From: Leucosporidium creatinivorum
Lineage: Eukaryota > Basidiomycota > Microbotryomycetes > Leucosporidiales > Leucosporidiaceae
Reading direction: 5' to 3'
Assembly: GCA_001600635.1 (NCBI GenBank)
Contig: BCKL01000012.1
Coordinates: forward strand, 124,001-188,000
DNA length: 64,000 bases
In this document: positions 50,533 to 64,000 of the stretch, in pieces
Numbering within the stretch: the first letter of the stretch is position 1
How the letters are laid out: the number at the start of each line of letters is the position of its first letter
Made by a program: the position numbers and the translations under genes
The notes under the pieces: generated by a model
The model's input: only the letters and a program-made list of their open reading frames with translations
Database searches by the model: none
What the model was told of the DNA's origin: nothing

Positions 50533-51158
50533 ATTTTCTTTTGCGCTTGTATATAGGCTTGTATTCGTGCCAAAGTCAGCGGGCGAGCGAACGAGCGAGT
50601 GGTTTCGGAGAGAGCGCGTACCCGGTCGCCTTGCGGTCCCGCAGATGCCTTTGCCTCTCACAGACATCAAGTTACTTGCGTAAAAGCTGCGTTTACAGAA
50701 TTAGGCCCCAAGCTTTCGCTGGCCCTCGTTTGTGAAAGCTTGGGAGCAGCGAGACAGCGCCGAGAGGGGGGCCCGCGGGATGGGCCGCGATGCTCGGCGG
50801 AAGTGTTGCGAGTGATCAGATATATACGGTGATGTTCGCGCTTGTGGCTCAACTCTGTACACACATACAGCTGTGGACGCAGGGTGCCCCTCAGTTCTCC
50901 AGGCCAACTTCTGCCTGCGCCGAGCCGTGACCGAGAGCAGAGGTTCCAGCAGCGGGCGGGAGATTGCAGCAAAACGGATGGGTTTCTTCCAGGAGCAAGT
51001 GTTGAGGATGTAGGACGCCAGCGTGGCCAGTGCGAAGGCGCCGAGACGAGCTGGCATTCAGAACTTGCCCTCAGCGCCAAAGTTCAAAGTCTCCCTCCTC
51101 CTCCTTCCTCTCTTTCTCCCTCTCACCCCACCCCCCTTCTACCCTTCTATCTTCAATC
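50533..51158. other. Intergenic region upstream of eIF5A
   Basis: About 0.63 kb. It contains a stem-loop candidate (50707-50744) and, closer to eIF5A, a C/T-rich leader (51080-51158). No gene was supported on either strand. Confidence 0.5.
50707..50744. repeat. Inverted repeat with stem-loop potential
   Basis: CCCAAGCTTTC at 50707-50717 and its exact reverse complement GAAAGCTTGGG at 50734-50744 could form an 11-bp stem with a 16-nt loop. It lies 175 bp after the stop of paralogue C, so it may sit in or near that transcript's 3' end. Confidence 0.6.
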
Positions 51159-52444
51159 ATGTCCGCCGAGGAGCAGGTATGTACACTTTGCCTCTGCTGC
51201 TACCACCCTACAGCAGCTCGCTAACGACCTTCCACGTGCCGTTGGCAAAAAACTTCGACCCTTTACCAGGTAAGCAAAAGACGCCTCTCGCGTGCCGCTG
51301 GCTCGCTGCCGGGGTCGCCGAGCTGTAGCTTAACAGGGTTGAAGAGCTAACATTGTATCTCTGTCGCTCCCACAGGCCCAGAACGATGAGCAGCACGAGC
51401 AGACCTTCGAGTCTGTCTCCGCCGGAGCTTCCCTCACCTACCCCATGCAGTGCTCTGCTCTCCGCAAGGGTGGACACATTGTCATCAAGGGCAAGCCCTG
51501 CAAGGTGAGCTCTCCTTCTTTTCCGAGCAGTTTGGACGACAGCAGCGTCGTGCGAGCAGAGATTTGGGAAGCGGAGCGAGCTGGGCCGAGGGTGCTAGCC
51601 TGGGAGCTGAAGGAGGAGCTCGGCGGTTGCATCCTTCTCGAAGTCATCACTATCAGACATTGGAAGCACCTATCGCCGAAGATGGAGGTTGAAAGGCGGA
51701 CGCTCGGCGGAAGAAAGACGCTTCTCGCGCGCCCAATCACACGACCCGAATCGAGTTGCGGAAAGCTGACCTGGCGCTGCTCCACTACAGATCATCGACA
51801 TGTCGACCTCGAAGACCGGAAAGCACGGACACGCCAAGGTCCACCTTGTCGCTACCGACGTGAGTTAGCCCGTCTCGCGAGAGCAGAGTCAAACGGAGCG
51901 CTAATCTCGCTTTCGACGCCCTACAGATCTTCACCGACAAGAAGTACGAGGAGCTCTCTCCCTCGACCCACAACGTCGATGTCCCCAACGTCACTCGCAA
52001 GGAGTACCAGCTCGTCAACAGTGCGTCGACTTTGGGCCGCGAGAGACCTTGCAAGGACCGACCGCTGACTGTCTTCGCTGCCGCACACTTTCCACCCCAC
52101 AGTCGACGACGGCTTCCTCAACATGATGCTCGTCGATGGAACCCCCAAGGACGACGTCAAGGTCCCCGAGGGCGAGATTGGAGACCAGATCCAATCGGCT
52201 TTCGATGACGGACAGGACGTGAGTTTGCTCTAGTGGAGTTCAAGGACGCGCCTTGCTGTTGGCGGGTGGACAGGGAACAAGAAAGCTGACCTCCATCGCC
52301 TCCCGCCCACCTACATACAATCACCGCCGCCGCCTTCGCCGAATCGCCTCTCGCCCTGCTCTCTCAACGCCATAGTTGATGATCACCATCATCTCGGCCA
52401 TGGGTATGGAGCAGGCCATCTCCTTCAAGGATGCTCCCAAGTAA
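51159..52444 (+). CDS. eIF5A: Translation factor eIF5A
   Basis: Model: 51159-51176, 51376-51504, 51791-51859, 51927-52020, 52103-52218, 52376-52444; 164 residues, as expected (yeast 157). The protein has [19 protein letters not shown] and the hypusination loop [12 protein letters not shown], with the modified Lys at residue 60. [20 protein letters not shown] and the OB-fold C-terminal domain, ending [17 protein letters not shown], follow. eIF5A relieves ribosome stalling, for example at proline runs, and needs hypusine made by deoxyhypusine synthase and hydroxylase. Exons 5 and 6 fall inside the inverted duplication that starts at 52083. An N lies 6 bases after the stop codon, next to a short repeat of the last codons, so the 3' end of this locus may be misassembled. 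The coding model itself is clean. Confidence 0.96.
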
Positions 52445-53121
52445 AAAGGNAATCTTCAAGGATGCCCCGCCCCCCTCGCCATCTCCCTTCTCCCTCAATC
52501 CCTTCCTCTTTCCCTCCTTCCTAACCCCCCCTGCATGTTACTTTCGCCTCTCCCCTCCTTCTCCCTCCTTTCCCCTCTTTTTTCCGTCAACTCCGAAGAC
52601 ACACACACCGCGCCCTCCTACAACTTTGACCCTCTCATCTCCTCACCCCATCTCGGCCTTCCCTTCTTCCCCTCTCTCCTCGACCTTACGGCTTCTTCCT
52701 TTCTCCCCTCGCGGCTCGCTTCATTGCGTAGAATGTGATTGGGAGATGGGAGTTGCTGTTTTTACGATACACATGAGCGAGGAGTGGAGTCTGGAGCGGC
52801 TGTTTGGGAAGAGGTGGGTTGGAGCAGGATGGGCGCCGGGAGTTGGTGTTCGGCGTTTGGTCGGAGCTCGTTGGGTTTTTTCTGTTTAGTCGTGTGTAGG
52901 GTTAAGGAGGATGATCTAGGGTGGCGAATGTGATGAGCGACATGATAGATTATGAGTGGTCGTCGACCGGCGGAGAGAGAGAGAGAGCCTCCCAGCGAGC
53001 AGCAAACCGCTCTGCTCATGTTCGGCGTTGTCTGGTCACTCGCAACTCGGCGGGGCTATCGGTGGGCTTCCACTGCACACGAATCTGACCTCCTGCGTTC
53101 GTGCACGAAAGCGCCCCCTTC
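52083..53121 (+). repeat. Left arm of a 1,039-bp inverted duplication
   Basis: Bases 52083-53121 pair with the reverse complement of 58166-59204, with position x matching 111287-x throughout. Every segment I compared inside this span is identical, including the single N (52450 and 58837). Homology continues with mismatches to about 52036 on the outside and about 53150 on the inside. The arm holds eIF5A exons 5 and 6, their intron and about 0.68 kb downstream. A short GA run occurs near 52975. A 152-codon ORF across the N is present in both arms but has no protein-like features. Confidence 0.93.
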
Positions 53122-53378
53122 GCCGCCGGTTGTCGACTTCTGCCAGCGCTCGCCGAGCCCTTCGTCCCTCTCCGACCGCTCATTCGAGCTCCCCATCACT
53201 CGCTGTTCGCACTGAACTACCCATGATCAGCTCGGCCCACCTCAACCGTAGACGGCTCGTGCCGAATTACCACCTCATTCCGCTCAGGCCTCGCTCGCTC
53301 GCTCCTCAAGCGCTCTCTGGCCGTTGATGGCTTGCAACGCTCTTCACTTTGCTCTATATCCCTTAAACCATACGCAAG
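53122..53378. other. Spacer between left arm and the next gene
   Basis: The first 30 bp still resemble the right arm with mismatches; the rest is unique and should hold the promoter of the gene at 53379. No other gene was seen. Confidence 0.45.
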
Positions 53379-54633
53379 ATGTCCGCCCCTGCTATCACTA
53401 CCACCCGCGACCTCATCGTGAGTAGCTAGGCTCAGCACGCTTATCTGCCGGACGCGCTGACCTCTCGCCCCTGCTGCAGCGCTACCGCAAGCTCCCGTCG
53501 TCTCAAACGGCGCTGAGCACCCTCGCCTCCCGGTTCTTCGCCCTCCTCGCCACGCCCGACAACCCCCCAGCCGCCCTCCTCCGCTCCGCCTTCCTCCCAG
53601 CGCTTCTCGGCAGCGACGCTCGTCCCAGGGACGCTTCCCAAGCCGCTCAGCTCGACGAGGAGATTCGCTTCCTCTTCTGTGCACCACCAAGCGTCGTCGT
53701 CGTGCAAGGTATCATCACGCCGGACCAAATTTCGCAAGCATGGGCGACGGCGCCGAAAGGAGGACCTGTAGGGGAGAGCGTGTTCCTCGCCTTTGCACTC
53801 AACCAAGAGCTCGAGTCGGCTAGGAGCGGGGGCGAGAGAGAGGAGGAATCCAACCTCAACAGTGAGTGACGCCCGCTGCTGTGCCCGAAGACCAAGCTGA
53901 CCCTCGGTCCTCCTTCCGCCCTCCCCCTCCTTTGCTTGCTCCGTCCCCCTTTACCAGTGATGATCCTCGCTACTCTCACCAACGAGCTGGCCCACTGGAT
54001 CTACGCCAGGGTCAGTTCGCCCAGCCTCGTCGACATGAAGGTGCGCCGAGCTGACTGTCCTTCCTCTCTCGCACAGACCCACGGCTATGTCGAGTCGCAG
54101 GCGACCGGAAACGATGGATGCTCTCTCAACTCATTCGGAGCAGCAAACAGCAGCGTGACCTCGCTGCAGTCTTTGCTCGTTATGCCAGGTAGCTCGAGCG
54201 ACTGTGCGGTTCGGGCTGTCACCCATCTATTCGGGTACACTTACGAACTGCTCTCTTATGCCATCGGTAAGTTCTCCCTCCCATCTCGGTCGTCTGATCC
54301 ATGCTGACCCTCCACCCATCTATAGGCGAACGCCAGCTCGTCAAGCGTCGCGCCGGCACTCGGCGGAACCCCTCCCTCACCCCTCCGCTCGTCTACCAGC
54401 TCATCGGCGATACTCCCGCTATCCTTGACGTAACCCAATACCCTCCCACCCATGCTCGCTGGATCGTCCCATGGAAGGAGGGCGATCCAATGTACGCCGT
54501 TGTCTCGGCGCTCACGCCCTTCTCCTCGCCCGATTACCATGGCGTCTGCAAGATTAGGGGAGGGACTGGACCGGCTAGCGAGTACAGTGTGACGCTAGCT
54601 GGTGCGGGAGAGCGGGAGGAGGGCAAGTTTTGA
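53379..54633 (+). CDS. Unidentified 323-residue protein
   Basis: Model: 53379-53417, 53480-53861, 53958-54010, 54077-54266, 54326-54633. All four introns have GT-AG ends and keep phase, and codon use matches the neighbours, so it is a real gene. It starts MSAPAITTTRDLIRYRKLPS and continues with helical, Leu/Ala-rich sequence (FFALLATPDNPPAALLRSAF, DEEIRFLFCAPPSVVVVQGI). Exon 3 encodes MILATLTNELAHWIYAR. The second half has VRAVTHLFGYTYELLSYAIG, PPLVYQLIGDTPAILDVTQY and ARWIVPWKEGDPMYAVVSAL. No signal peptide or long membrane segment is evident. I recognise no family and assign no function. It is one of two genes enclosed by the inverted duplication. Confidence 0.78.
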
Positions 54634-55510
54634 GGTGTGTAATTGGCGGTAGGGAGGGAGTCGGACTCGGACTCGAGGGACGAAGGAAAGATTCATGAGC
54701 AGGGAGGCCGACGTGGTCAGGATTGTACCGCTCGAGGTGTAGACTATCTGTATCTTGTAAGCATTCATGCCTTATGCGTTTGATTACGACCCTCGTTTGC
54801 GGTCGTCAGCTTCTCGGCGATGAGCTCAGGGCTTCGCCATCGCGAGATACCTTGCGTGCTCGTGGGAGCTTTCACACATTAGCCAAGGGAAAGGCCGCTA
54901 ACGCAGAGACTTAAAGGGTGAGTCTGACCTGCTCCTCTCGGATCTATTCTGCGGTGCAGTGCATTCGGCGGAAGCTCACCTCGACTCGCCAAGCAGGAGG
55001 TTTGTGGGTTCGGCTGAGCGATCTCTGGGCGCTGCTTCTTCTCAAAAGTCACTCGGTCTCCTTCTCCTGCAAATCTGACTGTCATCTTCCTCGAATCCAT
55101 AGGCCAAACCTGCTCTTCGCCGAGCAAACGACTTGCACAGGACTGACGGTTCAAGCCGAGATGGGCCTCGCACAATAAAGCTAATCACTTCTTCTAGACT
55201 TCCAGCAATCGCCTTCGGTATCATGTGAGTGGGTGCAGCTCGCCGGATAGAGCAGTTGAGCCTTCGCCGATCTACACTTCGGTGCCTCCCCCTGCCCCTT
55301 CCCCAGAGGGAGAAGTGTTGTTGGCTCTCGCGACAGTACGTATCCCCTGATCCTCTCTCTCTCTCTCTCCCACTCCTCGCAGTCACTTCCAGCTCGCTCG
55401 TCGCCTTACACACTCGACCGAAGGCGCTTCTCCCCCACTCCTCGCCGCCCCGCCGCCGGCCGCCGCCCTCTCGCCAGCCATCTCGGCTGGGTCCTGCGCA
55501 TCGCCCAGGG
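54634..55510. other. Intergenic region, about 0.88 kb
   Basis: This lies between the unidentified gene and the UNC93-like gene. It contains a CT microsatellite near 55350-55370 and several splice-like signals that may belong to 5' untranslated exons of the transporter. No coding exon could be supported. Confidence 0.45.
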
Positions 55511-57704
55511 ATGCAGCGAGCGGAGTGGGATGAGTCTGAGCTACCAGAACCAACAACCAAAGGTTGGACATCATCGACTTGGATCCAGATTGTACTCTGC
55601 TCCTTCCTATGCTTTCTCGGTCCTGGGTGAGTAGCTTCCGGTGGGCTTTCTCGGCTCTCGAGCTGACATTTGTTCACTTGCGCAGGCTCTTTAACGCTCT
55701 GACGTGAGTGATATTGTACTTAGTTCAGTGTGGCGCAGTCAAGCTGACTCGCAGTGACGACAGCGGCATGGGAGGAGGTGGGAGAAGCGACACCAAAGCT
55801 GCGAACGACGGTCTCGTCGCGTTGGTGAGTCGCAAGCTGCGCTGAGTATTCTTCCGCCTCTGACTTCGCCTGCCCTCCCTCAGTATTCGACGTTCGCATT
55901 GACCTCCTTCTTCGGCGGGACGATTTGCAATCGGCTCGGCGCTCGGCTCACTCTCGCCGTGGGAGCCGTTGGCTATCCTTTGGTACGCTCTGGCTGTTCA
56001 GCGTCTATTCAGAACGTGCGCTGACCCTTTCTTGACCGTCAACATAGTACATCGGCTCCTTCCTCTCGCTGAACCTCAATGGCAACTTCGCCTTCGTGAT
56101 CGGCAGCGGTGTCGTAGGTGAGTCGTTTTGACTCGTTAGCGGCTGTAGGGCTTAACTCAACATCTTCGTGTCTCCTATCTGCAGTCGGGCTGTGTGCTGG
56201 CCTGCTGTGGACTGCTCAAGGATCGCTTCTGCTCGCCTATCCCACCGAGTCGCAGAAGGGTCGCTTCTTCGCCATCTTCTGGTGAGTCGAGCCGTCCCCT
56301 CACCTCGTGTAGCTGTCTAGATGCTCATACTCACTCACCGATGCGCAGGGCCATCTTCAACATGGGCGCGGTCCTCGGCTCGGCGATCCAGCTCGGCCTC
56401 TCCTGGAACGAGTCCACAAGCAACGACGTCTCCAGCACCGTCTACGCTGTCTTTGTTGGCCTCAGCTCTTTTGCACTCGTGGTGCCGCTCTTCCTCATTC
56501 CCCCTGCACGCATGGTCCGCACCGACGGCAGCCGAGTGGTCGTTCCTTCGCATCCGAGTGAGCTCCTTTTGCACGTCGTCTCTCGTGCGACAACCTGACT
56601 AACATTTTTTTGCGCTTGTGTTACTTGTCCAGGCTGGAGAACGGAGCTGCTAGGGCTCTACCGCTGTCTTCGCGGCAACCTATGGATCCTCCTCCTTTTC
56701 CCCTTCTTCCTCGCCAGCAACTGGTTCTAGTGAGTCCAACTATGACGATTGCACATGACAACTCAAAGCTGATGCTGACCACCTGCTTCCTTCAGCACTT
56801 ATCAGTTTAAGTGAGCTTGAGAACCCACCTCGGCGTGAATCCCAGAAGCAAGCTGACCTCCGCCCTCCTGCAGCTCCTTCAACGGCGCCCTCTTCACCCT
56901 CCGCACTCGATCTCTGAACAACATGCTCTACTGGCTCACTCAGATCTTCAGCGCAATTGGCTTTGGCATGGCCCTCGACTGCTCGAGCCTGCGCCGAACC
57001 GCCCGAGCATGGAGAGGTCTCGCATTCGTTTTTACCGTGGCAATGTCTGTCTGGGGCGCCACACTTCACTTCCAGAGGTGAGTATCTGTATGTGACTCGG
57101 CTTCCCGACTTCTGTCTAACTTCCGTCGTGCTGCAGGCGATATACTCGAGCCGATTTGGTCGACCCTCGCCATCCACAATTCGCTCGTATCGACCTCAGG
57201 GACTCCGACTACCCGGGACACGTCATCCTCTACATGTTTATGGGCCTTCTTGATGCCGTGTGGCAGAGCTATGCCTGTGAGTCGCAGTGTCGACCGTCCC
57301 TACTCTCGGCGCTGACTCGTCCTCTCTCAGACTGGCTCATGGGCGCCATGTCGAACGACTCGTCCCAGCTCAGTCATCTCGTCGGAATGTATAAGTGCAT
57401 TCAGTCTGCTGGTGCAGCAGGCGTCTTCCGCATGGACTCAAACGGAGCGCCCTATCTCACCGAGCTTGTCGTCTCGTGGGCGCTTTGCGGAGTCGGCGTG
57501 CTCTTCGTGATCCCCGTTCTATGGATGAGGGCGACCGACAGGACTCCCGAGTGTGTGGTTCAGTGTGTAGTGGACGTCGAAGTGTCTATAGAGATCCGGA
57601 GGCCGTCCGAGGTCCTCTCGGAGAAGGAGATTGGCAGTCTGGACTTGGATCGAGACAGGGACAGGCGGGAATCGGAGGGCAGGGTGTATACATTGCAGTG
57701 GTAG
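55511..57704 (+). CDS. UNC93-like (DUF895) multipass membrane transporter
   Basis: Model: 55511-55626, 55686-55703, 55755-55824, 55884-55982, 56048-56117, 56185-56281, 56349-56557, 56633-56729, 56796-56810, 56874-57077, 57137-57276, 57331-57704; 502 residues. After a short acidic N terminus the first segment is TWIQIVLCSFLCFLGPGLFN, then ALTGMGGGGRSD, the family's typical Gly-rich loop. About eleven hydrophobic segments follow, including LYSTFALTSFFGGTICNRLG, LTLAVGAVGYPLYIGSFLSL, GVVVGLCAGLLWTAQGSLLL and AYPTESQKGRFFAIFWAIFN. Further on are NLWILLLFPFFLASNWFYTY and a cytosolic charged tail. Family members are major-facilitator-like proteins of mostly unknown substrate. Exons are very short (18 and 15 nt), but all phases agree. 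It lies inside the inverted duplication. Confidence 0.9.
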
Positions 57705-58165
57705 TGTTCTTAGGGCTTTTGTCAAGGTCTGTTGTATTGCTGTGACTGCATTGTCGTTGTCTCCAGCGCTTCGGGAGCGACGTTCGGCGTTCGCACTTTG
57801 CACCCAATGCGTTCTGCCCTTCTTTCCTCCTCAGCATCCATCCCAGGCTGTTTACTGAGCATACTAAACGCCTTGCTCAGTCTCGCTGTTTAACCAGGAG
57901 CCAGCGCCTCGCTGCGAAACTTGAGCGTTTAGGGGCCCAAATCGCTACGAATTCGTAGCGATTTGCCCTCCGAGATCCGCCTCCTTCGCAGCGAATTGAG
58001 AGGGGTCGGGCGACGGAGCACGAGGCGAGCTGGGGCCAGCCTGTGGAGTCGCAGAGAATGGGCAGTGACTTCAGGGCTGCCGAGCCAGTGCACGGGAAGT
58101 GAGAGAAGTTGAGGTCGACCGCGTGAGAGCTCGGCGCGCGCTGGCGCAAATCGATGACCGGCGGG
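57705..58165. other. Spacer between UNC93-like gene and right arm
   Basis: This holds the transporter's 3' region, a 28-bp perfect palindrome at 57938-57965 and, in its last 30 bp, diverged continuation of the duplication. No gene was seen. Confidence 0.5.
57938..57965. repeat. Perfect 28-bp palindrome
   Basis: The half-site CAAATCGCTACGAA is followed directly by its exact reverse complement, with no spacer, centred on an EcoRI-like GAATTC between 57951 and 57952. It is unlikely by chance and can form a cruciform. It lies about 200 bp inside the right arm of the inverted duplication. Confidence 0.95.
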
Positions 58166-59204
58166 GAAGGGGGCGCTTTCGTGCACGAACGCAGGAGGTC
58201 AGATTCGTGTGCAGTGGAAGCCCACCGATAGCCCCGCCGAGTTGCGAGTGACCAGACAACGCCGAACATGAGCAGAGCGGTTTGCTGCTCGCTGGGAGGC
58301 TCTCTCTCTCTCTCCGCCGGTCGACGACCACTCATAATCTATCATGTCGCTCATCACATTCGCCACCCTAGATCATCCTCCTTAACCCTACACACGACTA
58401 AACAGAAAAAACCCAACGAGCTCCGACCAAACGCCGAACACCAACTCCCGGCGCCCATCCTGCTCCAACCCACCTCTTCCCAAACAGCCGCTCCAGACTC
58501 CACTCCTCGCTCATGTGTATCGTAAAAACAGCAACTCCCATCTCCCAATCACATTCTACGCAATGAAGCGAGCCGCGAGGGGAGAAAGGAAGAAGCCGTA
58601 AGGTCGAGGAGAGAGGGGAAGAAGGGAAGGCCGAGATGGGGTGAGGAGATGAGAGGGTCAAAGTTGTAGGAGGGCGCGGTGTGTGTGTCTTCGGAGTTGA
58701 CGGAAAAAAGAGGGGAAAGGAGGGAGAAGGAGGGGAGAGGCGAAAGTAACATGCAGGGGGGGTTAGGAAGGAGGGAAAGAGGAAGGGATTGAGGGAGAAG
58801 GGAGATGGCGAGGGGGGCGGGGCATCCTTGAAGATTNCCTTTTTACTTGGGAGCATCCTTGAAGGAGATGGCCTGCTCCATACCCATGGCCGAGATGATG
58901 GTGATCATCAACTATGGCGTTGAGAGAGCAGGGCGAGAGGCGATTCGGCGAAGGCGGCGGCGGTGATTGTATGTAGGTGGGCGGGAGGCGATGGAGGTCA
59001 GCTTTCTTGTTCCCTGTCCACCCGCCAACAGCAAGGCGCGTCCTTGAACTCCACTAGAGCAAACTCACGTCCTGTCCGTCATCGAAAGCCGACTGGATCT
59101 GGTCTCCAATCTCGCCCTCGGGGACCTTGACGTCGTCCTTGGGGGTTCCATCGACGAGCATCATGTTGAGGAAGCCGTCGTCGACTGTGGGGTGGAAAGT
59201 GTGC
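58166..59204 (-). repeat. Right arm of the 1,039-bp inverted duplication
   Basis: This is the reverse complement of 52083-53121, including the N at 58837. Beyond 59204 the match to the eIF5A intron continues with four mismatches in about 50 bp, all transitions, and fades near 59251. On the inner side the match breaks at 58165 and fades near 58137. The diverged flanks show that two real genomic copies exist, while the shared N shows that the core was filled from one consensus. Confidence 0.93.
58843..59184 (-). pseudogene. 5'-truncated copy of eIF5A (last two exons)
   Basis: Copies of eIF5A exon 5 (59184-59069) and exon 6 with its stop (58911-58843) lie on the minus strand, separated by the same intron. 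Upstream of exon 5 only part of the preceding intron is present (to about 59251), and exons 1-4, including the hypusination loop, are absent. With no start codon or N-terminal domain it cannot make eIF5A. It is a by-product of the inverted duplication rather than a retrocopy, because the intron is retained. Confidence 0.9.
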
Positions 59205-59468
59205 AGCAGCGAAGGCAGTCAGCAGTCGGTCCTCGCAAGGTCTCTCGGCGCTGGTCGCTCGCGCCGAAGCAGGCTCGGTGGAGAGCAGTCGGTGAGCTAC
59301 AGAGTATCTTCGGCGCTAGGGTTAGTCATTTAAGAGCTCACATATATCTGCAATAGCTTATGCACCCTACCGCACGCCAGGAAGTCTGTCCCTCCTTCGG
59401 CTCAGCGCTGGCAAAGCGAGGGCGCGACCAAGTCAGGCTCTCTGTCCTGCCAACACCTTCGCCTCGCG

Positions 59469-62109
59469 ATGGCCAGCTCGAACGGCGACCCGGGGGAGCT
59501 ACCACGACATCTTCTGCACCTCTCTACACTGCAGCTCGTCACCCGCGCCTCGCCCTTCACTCACTCGAGGACTCTGCCGCTGCACACCCTCTCTCACCTC
59601 ATTCAAGACTACCTCGGATTGCTCGCGCAGGCCGCCAAGGATGCAGCAGAGCACTCGGGCAGGGAGAAGATCAGTATCTGGGATGTAGGCACTGCTCTCG
59701 AGGAATTTGGTGCCGGAACGCTGGCCGACTTGAAGGACGAGGTGGAGCGAGGCGACGAGGGCATTGGCGAGGAAGCAGAGCGGATACGAGAGCTGGCTCG
59801 GGGTCTCAAAGGTGAGCTCTCCGTGCATGCTCTGCTCTGCTTTGAACCGCTGCAGGGGCGCTGGCTGACCTTCATTCCACGCGTGTTTGCTAGACGTCCT
59901 GCACATTCGACCGCCGCCCACACCCGTCGCCCAGCTGTGCTACGATGCGCTCCTCCCAACCGAGATTCTCGCCATCAACGACCTTCCCGATCTCGTCCCC
60001 GAAGCAGCTTCGCCCGGCTCAGACGACAGCGACGATGCTGAGCCTTGCTCGCCTCAACCGCCAGCGCCAGTGGAGGAGCCGGTGCACATCAAGCATGAGG
60101 AATCGTTCAGCAACCTCTTCCTCGACTCGTGGGATCGCGAGATGGACGTGGATATGAACAGGAAGGAGCCGGTCGAGGAGGAGGAGGAGGAGGAGGACGC
60201 ACCGGGGTCGGCTTGGAGGGATCCCAGCCTGATCCCTTCCTACGTACCCGACTTCCTGCCACCTTTCCCCGGGATGGAGCGTGAGGTGGACGTCTCGTCT
60301 CCCGTTCGGCGGCGACGAGAGCGCGAGAGGGAGCGCGAGGCAGCGCAGGCGGAGGCATGGGCAGCTGGCGCTCAGCGGGTCTCATCGGCGGCGATGGGCG
60401 GGGATCCATGGCTCGTGCCCATACCTTACGCCCACTCCATGCTCGCCGAGATACACCCCATCACCGCCCTCCCCGCCCTCTCCCCTCCTCCCGCTCCCTC
60501 TCCCCCGGGCTCACCTTCCGCCGAGGACGACGACCATGGAGTCGCTCGCTCGAAGCGACGACGAGCCAGATCCATCTCGCCTCCACCCTCCTCGACCAAC
60601 TCCCTCTCCGCTTACCGCGAGACTGCACCCGAGGTACCTCACTTGCCCAAGTGGCTTCGGCCGAATCCCAGGCGTCGCGAGGCGGCCGGTGCCATCTCCC
60701 TCTCCTCCGACCTCTCCCTCTCCTCCTCCGACTCGCTCTTTGGAGTCCTGCCGGTCCCCGAAACTCGGCAGGCGTCGAGGCCGCCAGGCTTCCTCCCAGA
60801 TCAGGCTCCTCCGCGCGTCCACCCCTTCAATACCTCTCTTCCCTACACCATCTCGTCACCCGTCCCTTACCACGCTGCAGCAGGCCACCTCATCGCCGCT
60901 CCACCGCATCCTCGCATCCCTGACGCTCTCCCTCGCGTCAAGAATTGGCTCTCTCGTCCCAATTCGCCTTCGCTCGCCCTCTTCTCCCGACTCACAAGGA
61001 TGGGACCGCCAGGTCCTCTCGGACCAAAGGGAGAGGCACTGGACTACGAGTACGTCGGCACCTCAGCCGTCGTCGCCCTCAACGTCGAGTGGCCCGTTCG
61101 CGCGCACAACGCTCGTCTGCCTCCGGCGTACATCAAAGAGGATGTAGAAGGTCCCTCCGCTGCGCCGACGCCGCAGACGGGCATCAAGCTGAAGCTCGGC
61201 CGAGGAGGGAGTCAGAGTCAAGCAGGAAGCCCGGCGCCGACGCCCGGTCCGAGCGGGAGTTGGGGCGGCAGTGGGGCCTTCGGAGGAGCTGGAAGAGGCG
61301 AGGATCACCCGATGGGCAGGGAGGGATCGGTATCGCTGGGCGGGGCCTACTATGGCAGCCCGAGTCGAGAGATGGACGTCGTGCAGGAGGAGGAGTTCGC
61401 GGCGCCGAACGGTCATGGCCAGGCGATGCTGGGAGTGAGCAGCGCTGGCGAGGCTTCGTCCGCGCACATCTTCAATCAGCCGCCGCCAGTGGTCGAGCGA
61501 GCTCCACCAGCAGCCCCGAGGCCGTTCGACTTTGGAGGGACGTCCTTTACCTTCAAAGCTCAGCCTTCTCCGCCTCCTCCTCCGCCACCTCCAGCGCCTG
61601 CGCCAATCACCTTTGCCGCTTCCTCCTTCGCCTACAACCCTTTTGAAGCCCCACCGCCTCCACCGCCTTCCGCTCCCGCTCCTCCCGCGCCGGCTCTTCC
61701 AGCAGAGTCGGCGCCTCCTTCCTCCGACGTCAACTCGTCCATCGCTCCCGAGTCGGACTTTGCCATCGCACCCGACACCGACTTTGCCTCGGCTTCACCA
61801 GCACCTCAGCCGGCTCCACCGCTCGACTTCCACGCACATCCAGCTCCTCCTACCTCCAACTCGCTCGCCCCTCCGCCTACCTCGAGCTACGCCTCCGCCC
61901 CCCCCATACCTTCGCCTCTCCCCGCGCATGTCTTGGACGACCCCATCGCCTCGCAGCTGTCGCAAATGTTCTCGCCCGAGCAGATCTTGACGCCTCAAGG
62001 CTCGCCCGAGCCGGCGGGGATCGCTGGGTTCGATTTTGCAGCGTTTACCGCGGCGGCGGTCAATGGGACACAGGGAGGTCAGTTGGAGACGCAGGAGGAA
62101 CAGCAGTAG
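59469..62109 (+). CDS. Histone-fold (Bromo_TP) TAF3/TAF8-like protein
   Basis: Model: 59469-59811, 59894-62109; 852 residues. The N terminus has a histone-fold of the bromodomain-associated type, about residues 12-95: LPRHLLHLSTLQLVTRASPF, THSRTLPLHTLSHLIQDYLG, LLAQAAKDAAEHSGREKISI and WDVGTALEEFG. After DVLHIRPPPTPVAQLCYD come an acidic stretch, PSYVPDFLPPFPGMEREVDV and a long Pro/Ala/Ser-rich disordered tail (SPPPPPPPPAPAP, APPPPPPSAPAP). Histone folds of this class occur in TFIID subunits TAF3 and TAF8 and in SAGA Spt7. The segment PxFLPPFP after the fold favours TAF3/TAF8, with the partner TAF10. No PHD finger or bromodomain was found. The assignment to TAF3 rather than TAF8 is open. It starts about 220 bp beyond the duplication. 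Confidence 0.82.
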
Positions 62110-62662
62110 ATTGGTAGTGATGCAGCTTGGCCTGTTGATAGTGATTTGGGTGAGTTCGAGAGAGCGCCGAGAGCTGCGAGGGCTCGCATTTTAGGTGGAG
62201 TACAGCAGTGCAAACCAAAGCACAGCCTTCGGACTCGTTGTATCTGTCTGAAGGCTCAAGCGCGTCCTCAAGCTGTCTTGACCTTTCCCTCGAGCGCCCC
62301 TCCGCCCCTTACTCTCCTTCCACATCTTTGCTCTTTCTCGCTTCGACTCGTCCGCCGCTCTGAGCGACCCTCGTACAGCTGCTAGGTGAGCTACAGCGTC
62401 TCTTCTACCCTCCTCTATCTCCCTACACCCCTACAACCCGCTCCACGCCCGCCCCCCTTCACCAGCTCATCAAGCTCAGCGCACTGACCCACTTCTGTTG
62501 TTGTGCTTGTGCAGAACTTCGATTGCTCTGGAAGCTCAATCCGTCGCTACTAGGACTGCAAAGCACCGACTCGAAGCGCTGCTCGTCTACACCCTCCCCC
62601 TCACATGCCCGCTCGCTCTCCTCCCTCACGACTTCTCGTCGCTCGCTCGCTCTAAGCTCAGA
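62110..62662. other. Intergenic region upstream of the F-box-like gene
   Basis: About 0.55 kb. It contains a GTACAGCTGCTAGGTGAGCTACAG string near 62375 in split form (CTACAG copies) and C-rich leader sequence. It may include a 5' untranslated intron. No gene was supported. Confidence 0.45.
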
Positions 62663-63846
62663 ATGGCTGGATGGAACGATCTGCCACCCGAGATCAAGCA
62701 AGTCGTGGTGAACCTCGTCGACGAGCAGGAGTACGTGCTAGTGAAGACCAAGAGAGACGCGTTGACGCGCCAGCGGCTGAGGTCCCTATCGGCGTTGAGT
62801 GGGATGGACCGCGAGCTGCACGCTCTGTGTGCGCCGCTGATGTGGCAGGTGAGTATGCAGGTGGTAGTGAAGCTTTCGATGCTGACCAAGCGGCCGCCTG
62901 CAGACGGTCGACCTCGATAGGCGCCGATTCTCTCGGTGTGAATCGTTCATCGCCGACGTCCGTCCCTCGACGGCCACCCTCGTGCAGCATCTCCAGCTTG
63001 AGCCACTTGAGAGGGAAGTTACTGAGCTCACAGTGGTCGTCGACGCCTATGCCGACCTCCTACGCATGCTCTCGGCTCTGGAAACCCTCACCTTCCGATG
63101 CACCTCGGCGGTGACCATCGCACTTCTTCCACTCCTTCCTCCCACTCTGTCGACCAGCCTTCGCTCCATCGAGATGGTTGGCGACTATTCTCTGGGACAG
63201 TCCTTCAGCTACGTCGCCGTTGCAGCTCTTCTCTCCGCCCTCCCCGAGCTGGAAACGGTCGAACTCGCCTACTTCAATTCGGATGGGGAAGGTGCAGTCT
63301 TCCTTCTGGACACCATTCGGCGCCTGTCCAAGCTCCAAGATCTTTCCCTCCTCGAGATGGGAGCTGGCCTCCTGCATTCAGCCCTTGCGCATCCGTGGAA
63401 CTCGTCGCTCGTCTCCCTCAGCTTGGGGCACAACGACCTGTGGACCATAGGTGACGACTCCACCATCCACCGCCTTCTCCAAAGTCATGCTCAAACTCTC
63501 GAGAGCCTCGACCTACCCGAATGCTACTCGCCCCAGCTCGACATGCCTCCCCTCCCACGTCGGAGTCCTCCGCCTGAGCTTCTGGCTCACCGAAGATGCC
63601 ATCGCGCTCCCTACCGCCTTCTCCGCCTCACCTCTACAACAATTGCACGTATCGGTCAACGAGTATACATCAGCTAGATGGATGAAGGGCGTCAAGGAGA
63701 CAATCGTGCAGCATGGCGACACGTTGGAGGAGGTCTTGGGCTCGGATCACAGCGACTTTGACAGTCATGGCGGAGGGGCGAGGAAGGCGCTGCGAGAGCT
63801 GGAAGACTTTTGCGATGAAGAGGGGTATGCCTATGAGGAGTTGTGA
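62663..63846 (+). CDS. F-box-like leucine-rich repeat protein (frame shift near 3' end)
   Basis: Exon 1 is 62663-62848, exon 2 starts at 62904. The N terminus MAGWNDLPPEIKQVVVNLVD is F-box-like (LPPEI core), and CAPLMWQTVDLDRRRF follows as in fungal F-box/LRR proteins. The body has irregular leucine-rich repeats: LLRMLSALETLTFRC, LSALPELETVELAYFNSDG, IRRLSKLQDLSLLEMGAG, NSSLVSLSLGHNDLWTIG and SHAQTLESLDLPECYSPQLD. After about 63550 this frame runs into sequence without repeats and stops at 63677. The next repeat-like sequence (HVGVLRLSFWLTED, PLQQLHVSVNEYTS, LEEVLGSDHSDF) continues in another frame to the TGA at 63844-63846. No intron with GT-AG ends joins them without losing repeats. The gene is either a recent pseudogene or carries a one-base sequence error. 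It is probably an SCF substrate adaptor. Confidence 0.7.
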
Positions 63847-64000
63847 GGCTAGATGTGCAATATGCCGCTTTGCTCTGCTTCGAAGACGAGGAGTGCGAGA
63901 GCGGCTCGGCAAACGGGAGATGAGAACCGGAGTGAGCTGGCTTTGCTCTCTCTGCTCGTAACGAGGAACGAGATGTGGGTCTACAGCGCCGTCAGTTCCT
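63847..64000. other. Terminal intergenic sequence
   Basis: The last 154 bp follow the F-box-like gene. Nothing was recognised. Confidence 0.4.

Follow-up and report, generated by a model that had tools for sequence, protein, structure and literature searches.

An inverted, truncated copy of the eIF5A 3′ part in Leucosporidium creatinivorum, apparently homogenised by gene conversion

Why are the two arms of a short inverted repeat nearly identical throughout their core, when the few bases that border this core differ so much? The question is raised by a locus in Leucosporidium creatinivorum at which near-identical inverted arms enclose a segment that, taken whole, was located at a single genomic site. 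It lies in a 64,000-nucleotide stretch, here called the window, which is positions 124001–188000 of contig C12 (BCKL01000012.1) in the 27.7-Mb, 63-contig genome. The GC content of the window is about 57–66% in 2-kb steps, and the genes modelled in it have introns. A preliminary description of this DNA offered three readings: an old inverted duplication whose copies gene conversion has kept alike, a recent duplication, and a scaffolding error.

Structure and gene content of the locus

The features of the locus are collected in Table 1. Direct comparison of the arms confirmed the coordinates and the 1,039-bp length of the core, as well as the positions of both Ns, all as first described. The core sequences had also been thought to be identical; they match, N opposite N, at 1038 of the 1039 positions, but one letter differs. 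In the frame of the exon model, this difference affects the third base of a Gln codon in eIF5A and is synonymous. The diverged homologous flanks of the earlier account are present but short, reaching 43 bp outward and 40 bp inward before homology ends. The whole homologous stretch is thus 1,122 bp long with 13 letter differences, and 12 of these are found in the fringes, 4 in the 43 outer and 8 in the 40 inner positions, although the fringes total just 83 bp and their ends are defined by the alignment. The fringe differences are substitutions only, without gaps, and 9 of the 12 are transitions. Beyond the fringes, the inner flanks align no better than shuffled sequences, and the outer flank gives an alignment score of 25, where 300 shuffles have their 95th percentile at 24 and reach at most 28. 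A DNA search of the genome located the arm at two places only, which are these two arms. The right outer flank was found at one place; in addition, 42 bp of its fringe match the eIF5A intron.

Table 1. Positions of the features of the inverted repeat and its surroundings (window coordinates).
Feature	Position	Strand	Details
eIF5A gene	51159..52444	+	six exons in model, last two within left arm
eIF5A exons	51159–51176 (by eye), 51376–51504, 51791–51859, 51927–52020, 52103–52218, 52376–52444	+	
Left arm	52040..53161	+	outer fringe 52040–52082, core 52083–53121, inner fringe 53122–53161
Sole letter difference in core	52194 (A)	+	G on complement at 59093 in right arm
N, left arm	52450	.	matching N in right arm: 58837
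Tentative gene	53379..54633	+	exon joins uncertain
UNC-93-like MFS transporter gene	55511..57704	+	12 exons, 499 aa in splice model
Nested palindrome	57909..57994	.	perfect 28-bp centre 57938–57965
Right arm	58126..59247	−	inner fringe 58126–58165, core 58166–59204, outer fringe 59205–59247
Gene start outside right arm	59469..59999	+	Pfam Bromo_TP 9.1e-06, histone-fold domain

The left arm begins within an eIF5A intron and takes in the last two exons of the gene, the intron between them, and about 700 bp past the stop codon. The joined eIF5A query matches Pfam IF5A-like_N (2.1e-37) and eIF-5a (1.8e-26), and the N of the left arm is 6 nt after the end of the stop codon. The 12-mer CTTCAAGGATGC is present on both sides of this N, 31 bp apart (52423–52465); it may be a small tandem repeat or a trace of the assembly. 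The right arm is a 5′-truncated copy of the gene, with the last two exons, the intron between them, and the 3′ flank. Since the earlier exons, among which is the exon with the hypusine-site motif, are absent from it, the whole eIF5A protein cannot be made from the right arm. The retained intron shows that the duplication occurred at the DNA level and rules out a retrocopy origin. In a protein search of the whole genome, the best candidates scored gave seven matches, five at the gene and two in the right arm, with none elsewhere, so the complete copy was found once only. The query had two wrong residues at one join, on which this conclusion does not depend.

The enclosed segment had been described as carrying two genes, and this is plausible. 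One of them is supported by Pfam as an UNC-93/MFS transporter (UNC-93, 5e-16, on the first 453 residues of the product), but the other is tentative, with no Pfam match when it was scanned in pieces and joined. The UNC-93 gene has 68–76% DNA matches elsewhere on the contig. Two UNC-93 paralogues on C12 are found in a 6.5-kb inverted pair, with arms about 59 kb apart (C12:42452–48943 and C12:108221–114729) and a 642-bp identical block with two shared Ns. The gene that starts outside the right arm is one that we take to be TAF8-like. There was no Rfam match at the gathering threshold in 51000–60000, and ARAGORN found no tRNA in the window.

What the Ns in the assembly record

The window holds two Ns in all, one in each arm. 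What does an N stand for in this assembly? There are 77 Ns in 258 kb of the contig, and 49 of them are within repeats found by self-comparison, which cover 40,027 bases. Partner searches covered 24 of the other 28: 17 are in a stretch with a 96% partner on contig C7, 6 are in a stretch with a 98% partner on contig C25, and one adjoins the C25-partnered stretch, outside the matched part. In the next 20 kb, all 23 Ns are in a 2.5-kb repeat. In total, 95 of the 100 Ns in 278 kb of contig have a repeat partner.

The pair formed by C12:74900–76400 and C7:389162–390650 is a useful guide to the Ns of this assembly. All 17 of its Ns are common to both copies and lie in two mismatch-free blocks, and its 55 mismatch or gap columns are all outside the N-bearing blocks. 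Ns and real mismatches are thus mutually exclusive by block. Four of the eight self-pairs of C12 with Ns, the arms included, share at least one N, and in the two long N-sharing self-pairs besides the arms, the shared Ns are in identical blocks, 642 bp long in one and 638 bp in the other. There is also counter-evidence: the remaining four self-pairs share none, one of the N-sharing pairs has only one of its two Ns in common, and the C12/C25 pair has six Ns on one side only. We take these unshared Ns to reflect repeat families of more than two copies.

The shared Ns in other repeat pairs of the genome thus support the earlier proposal that pooled reads underlie the assembled core. An N is most likely a base where pooled repeat copies disagree, and the N at 52450 and 58837 is probably a base that differs between the arms. 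The simplest rule that would give this pattern is that indistinguishable reads of two copies yield one consensus in both places, with N at disagreements. Since differences between pooled copies apparently survive in the assembly as Ns and are not lost, a single N points to near identity; under this rule, the arms differ at 2 of the 1039 core sites and are about 99.8% identical. The difference at 52194 would have kept its letters because a short read can span the 112 bp to the nearest fringe difference. The N is farther off, 368 bp from that fringe difference and 256 bp from 52194.

Origin of the uniform core

The divergence is 12/83 (about 14%) in the fringes compared with 2/1039 in the core, with the N counted, a difference of about 75-fold. 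Chance can be rejected as the source of this contrast (Fisher p ~1e-12). Furthermore, the longest identical run in the arms, 927 bp, did not arise in any of 10,000 trials that placed the 13 differences at random. Protein selection does not explain the identity of the core, since just 185 of its 1039 bases are coding in the exon model. Of the three readings offered at the outset, the contrast between core and fringe best supports the first, in which gene conversion has kept the copies of an old inverted duplication uniform, and we consider it the probable explanation. Arms that are about 99.8% identical between fringes that differ by about 14% favour an old converted duplication over a scaffolding error or a simple recent duplication, and 12 substitutions without gaps, 9 of them transitions, are what is expected of age. 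Thus, as judged within this one genome, the arms are likely older than their identity suggests.

In the mechanism that we propose, a DNA-level duplication would have placed about 1.1 kb, comprising the 3′ part of eIF5A and its 3′ flank, in inverted orientation 5 kb downstream. Subsequently, nonallelic gene conversion between the linked arms would overwrite one with the other, probably more than once. The conversion would be most effective in the direction from the gene to the truncated copy, because damage transferred into eIF5A would be selected against. The outermost 40 bp or so at each end, which adjoin nonhomologous DNA, would escape conversion and drift to a difference of about 14%. Literature searches on eIF5A pseudogenes, inverted repeats and fungal gene conversion, and on inverted-repeat conversion in basidiomycetes, gave nothing on this locus in the titles and abstract openings of the top matches, and eIF5A was in none of those listed for the first search.

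Could the arms instead stem from one recent inverted duplication, with no ongoing conversion? A core that is 99.8% identical, with the differences crowded at both ends, fits such an event, and error-prone replication at the junctions, as in template switching, or other causes could also have yielded the fringe differences. However, 12 gapless substitutions, including 9 transitions, in 83 bp resemble ordinary drift. The other repeats of the contig also bear on this point. There are 13 self-pairs with a length of 300 bp or more. Five of them, the arms included, have an identical run that was reached by no permutation, and 8 do not. In the four other pairs, this run is within longer diverged homology, which a single duplication does not yield. 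They count against a recent duplication, which we regard as unlikely. An assembly or scaffolding error, by which a core that exists once was placed twice or strongly different cores were flattened, seems quite improbable to us. The N at the matching place in both arms would fit it, as Ns in repeats are common in this assembly, but each arm has its own diverged fringe and its own unlike flanks. Furthermore, the same assembly separates repeat pairs of 93–97% identity letter by letter over most of their length, and its Ns are written in other blocks than those so resolved. Since it keeps such pairs apart, we reject a scaffolding error as the main reading.

The layout itself, with inverted repeats around a two-gene cargo, would also suit a mobile element, either a transposon or one that has captured genes, with the 1.1-kb arms as its terminal inverted repeats. 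Such an element is hardly credible here, since the arm is at two genomic places only, the DNA search gave no second copy of the whole segment, and the arms contain host gene sequence. There is no shared direct repeat of 6–12 bases in the 40 bases around each outer edge, and the pieces scanned with Pfam gave no transposase match. Lacking multiple copies and a 6–12-bp target-site duplication, the terminal-inverted-repeat transposon was rejected. Only the inverted layout and a unique 28-bp palindrome near one inner edge might suggest a regulated invertible switch with its own recombinase. This is very improbable: the length and genic content of the arms are those expected in homologous recombination, and the pieces scanned with Pfam gave no match to a recombinase family.

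Other repeats of this genome may likewise be homogenised in patches, and where the pairs carry Ns, part of this uniformity may come from the assembly. One of the five pairs with long identical runs, at 219–220 kb and 230–231 kb, looks retroelement-like from reading its bases. Window 62283–64000 and C12:196262–198062 form an inverted pair of a gene-like stretch, 8 kb apart and 93% identical overall. This pair, another of the five, is free of Ns, contains identical runs of 116, 141, and 289 bp, and is a possible second conversion pair.

Possible inversion of the segment and related systems

If the arms recombine as proposed, some of the exchanges between them should resolve as crossovers and invert the 5-kb segment, so flipping is expected in principle. 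Such a flip would not disrupt eIF5A, as the arm does not include its earlier exons and is like its counterpart. The palindrome within the segment is a nested one, and its perfect centre ends 160 bp short of the inner edge of the right arm. This 28-bp centre is found at one genomic place only, allowing up to 3 mismatches. It exceeds the maximum of 20 bp seen in 20 single-base shuffles of the 278-kb stretch, in which the next longest perfect palindrome is 16 bp. Replication forks may stall or DNA may break at this palindrome, or it may be left over from a template switch long ago. In RNA folding, its region has z = −2.21, with 3 of 200 shuffles equally stable; as this is just mildly more stable than shuffles, we claim no RNA function. 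Nor do we claim a dedicated function for the repeat.

The locus is best described as an apparently homogenised inverted duplication of the eIF5A 3′ part, of known behaviour and unusual placement. A comparable arrangement is reportedly the FLNA/EMD inversion of the eutherian X chromosome, said to have been described by Caceres et al. in 2007, in which homogenised inverted repeats also surround a two-gene segment. That case, however, is mammalian, with longer arms, and recurrent inversion is said to have been shown across species.

The closest known system is the flip/flop region of Saccharomyces chromosome XIV, where near-identical, homogenised inverted repeats likewise flank unique genes. The paper on that region proposes gene conversion between the inverted repeats with occasional crossover, and inversion as a by-product of conversion; its authors also discuss misassembly and, on the strength of independent assemblies, argue against it (Salzberg et al. 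2022, PMC9731477). The flip/flop arms are 4.2 kb long with two genes each, 24 kb and 15 genes lie between them, and both orientations have been seen (PMC9731477). Here, by contrast, the arms are 1.1 kb long, one is in a complete gene and the other is a truncated copy, 5 kb lie between them, and the orientation is known from one assembly. In a study of human inversions, those mediated by inverted repeats have arms of 1.6–24 kb and segments from 5.1 kb, and are highly recurrent (Aguado et al. 2014, PMC3961182). The human inversions were tested in many individuals, and our arms are shorter than their range (PMC3961182). Recombination in budding yeast is stimulated by a fork barrier close to inverted repeats, and of the recombinants associated with replication, half have an inversion (PMC8748988).

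A fuller model, which we put forward as tentative and unlikely as a whole, is that this is a flip/flop locus anchored in an essential gene. One arm would be the 3′ part of eIF5A, and the truncated copy would be refreshed by one-way conversion under selection. Flips would leave eIF5A whole, both orientations of the two genes would occur in nature, and the 28-bp palindrome could be the break or fork-stalling site that starts the exchange.

eIF5A is essential. If conversion and flipping are confirmed, the locus would offer a small, tractable inverted repeat with one arm inside an essential gene, in which the direction of conversion could be tested. The locus also illustrates how single Ns in this assembly can be read as differences between repeat copies.
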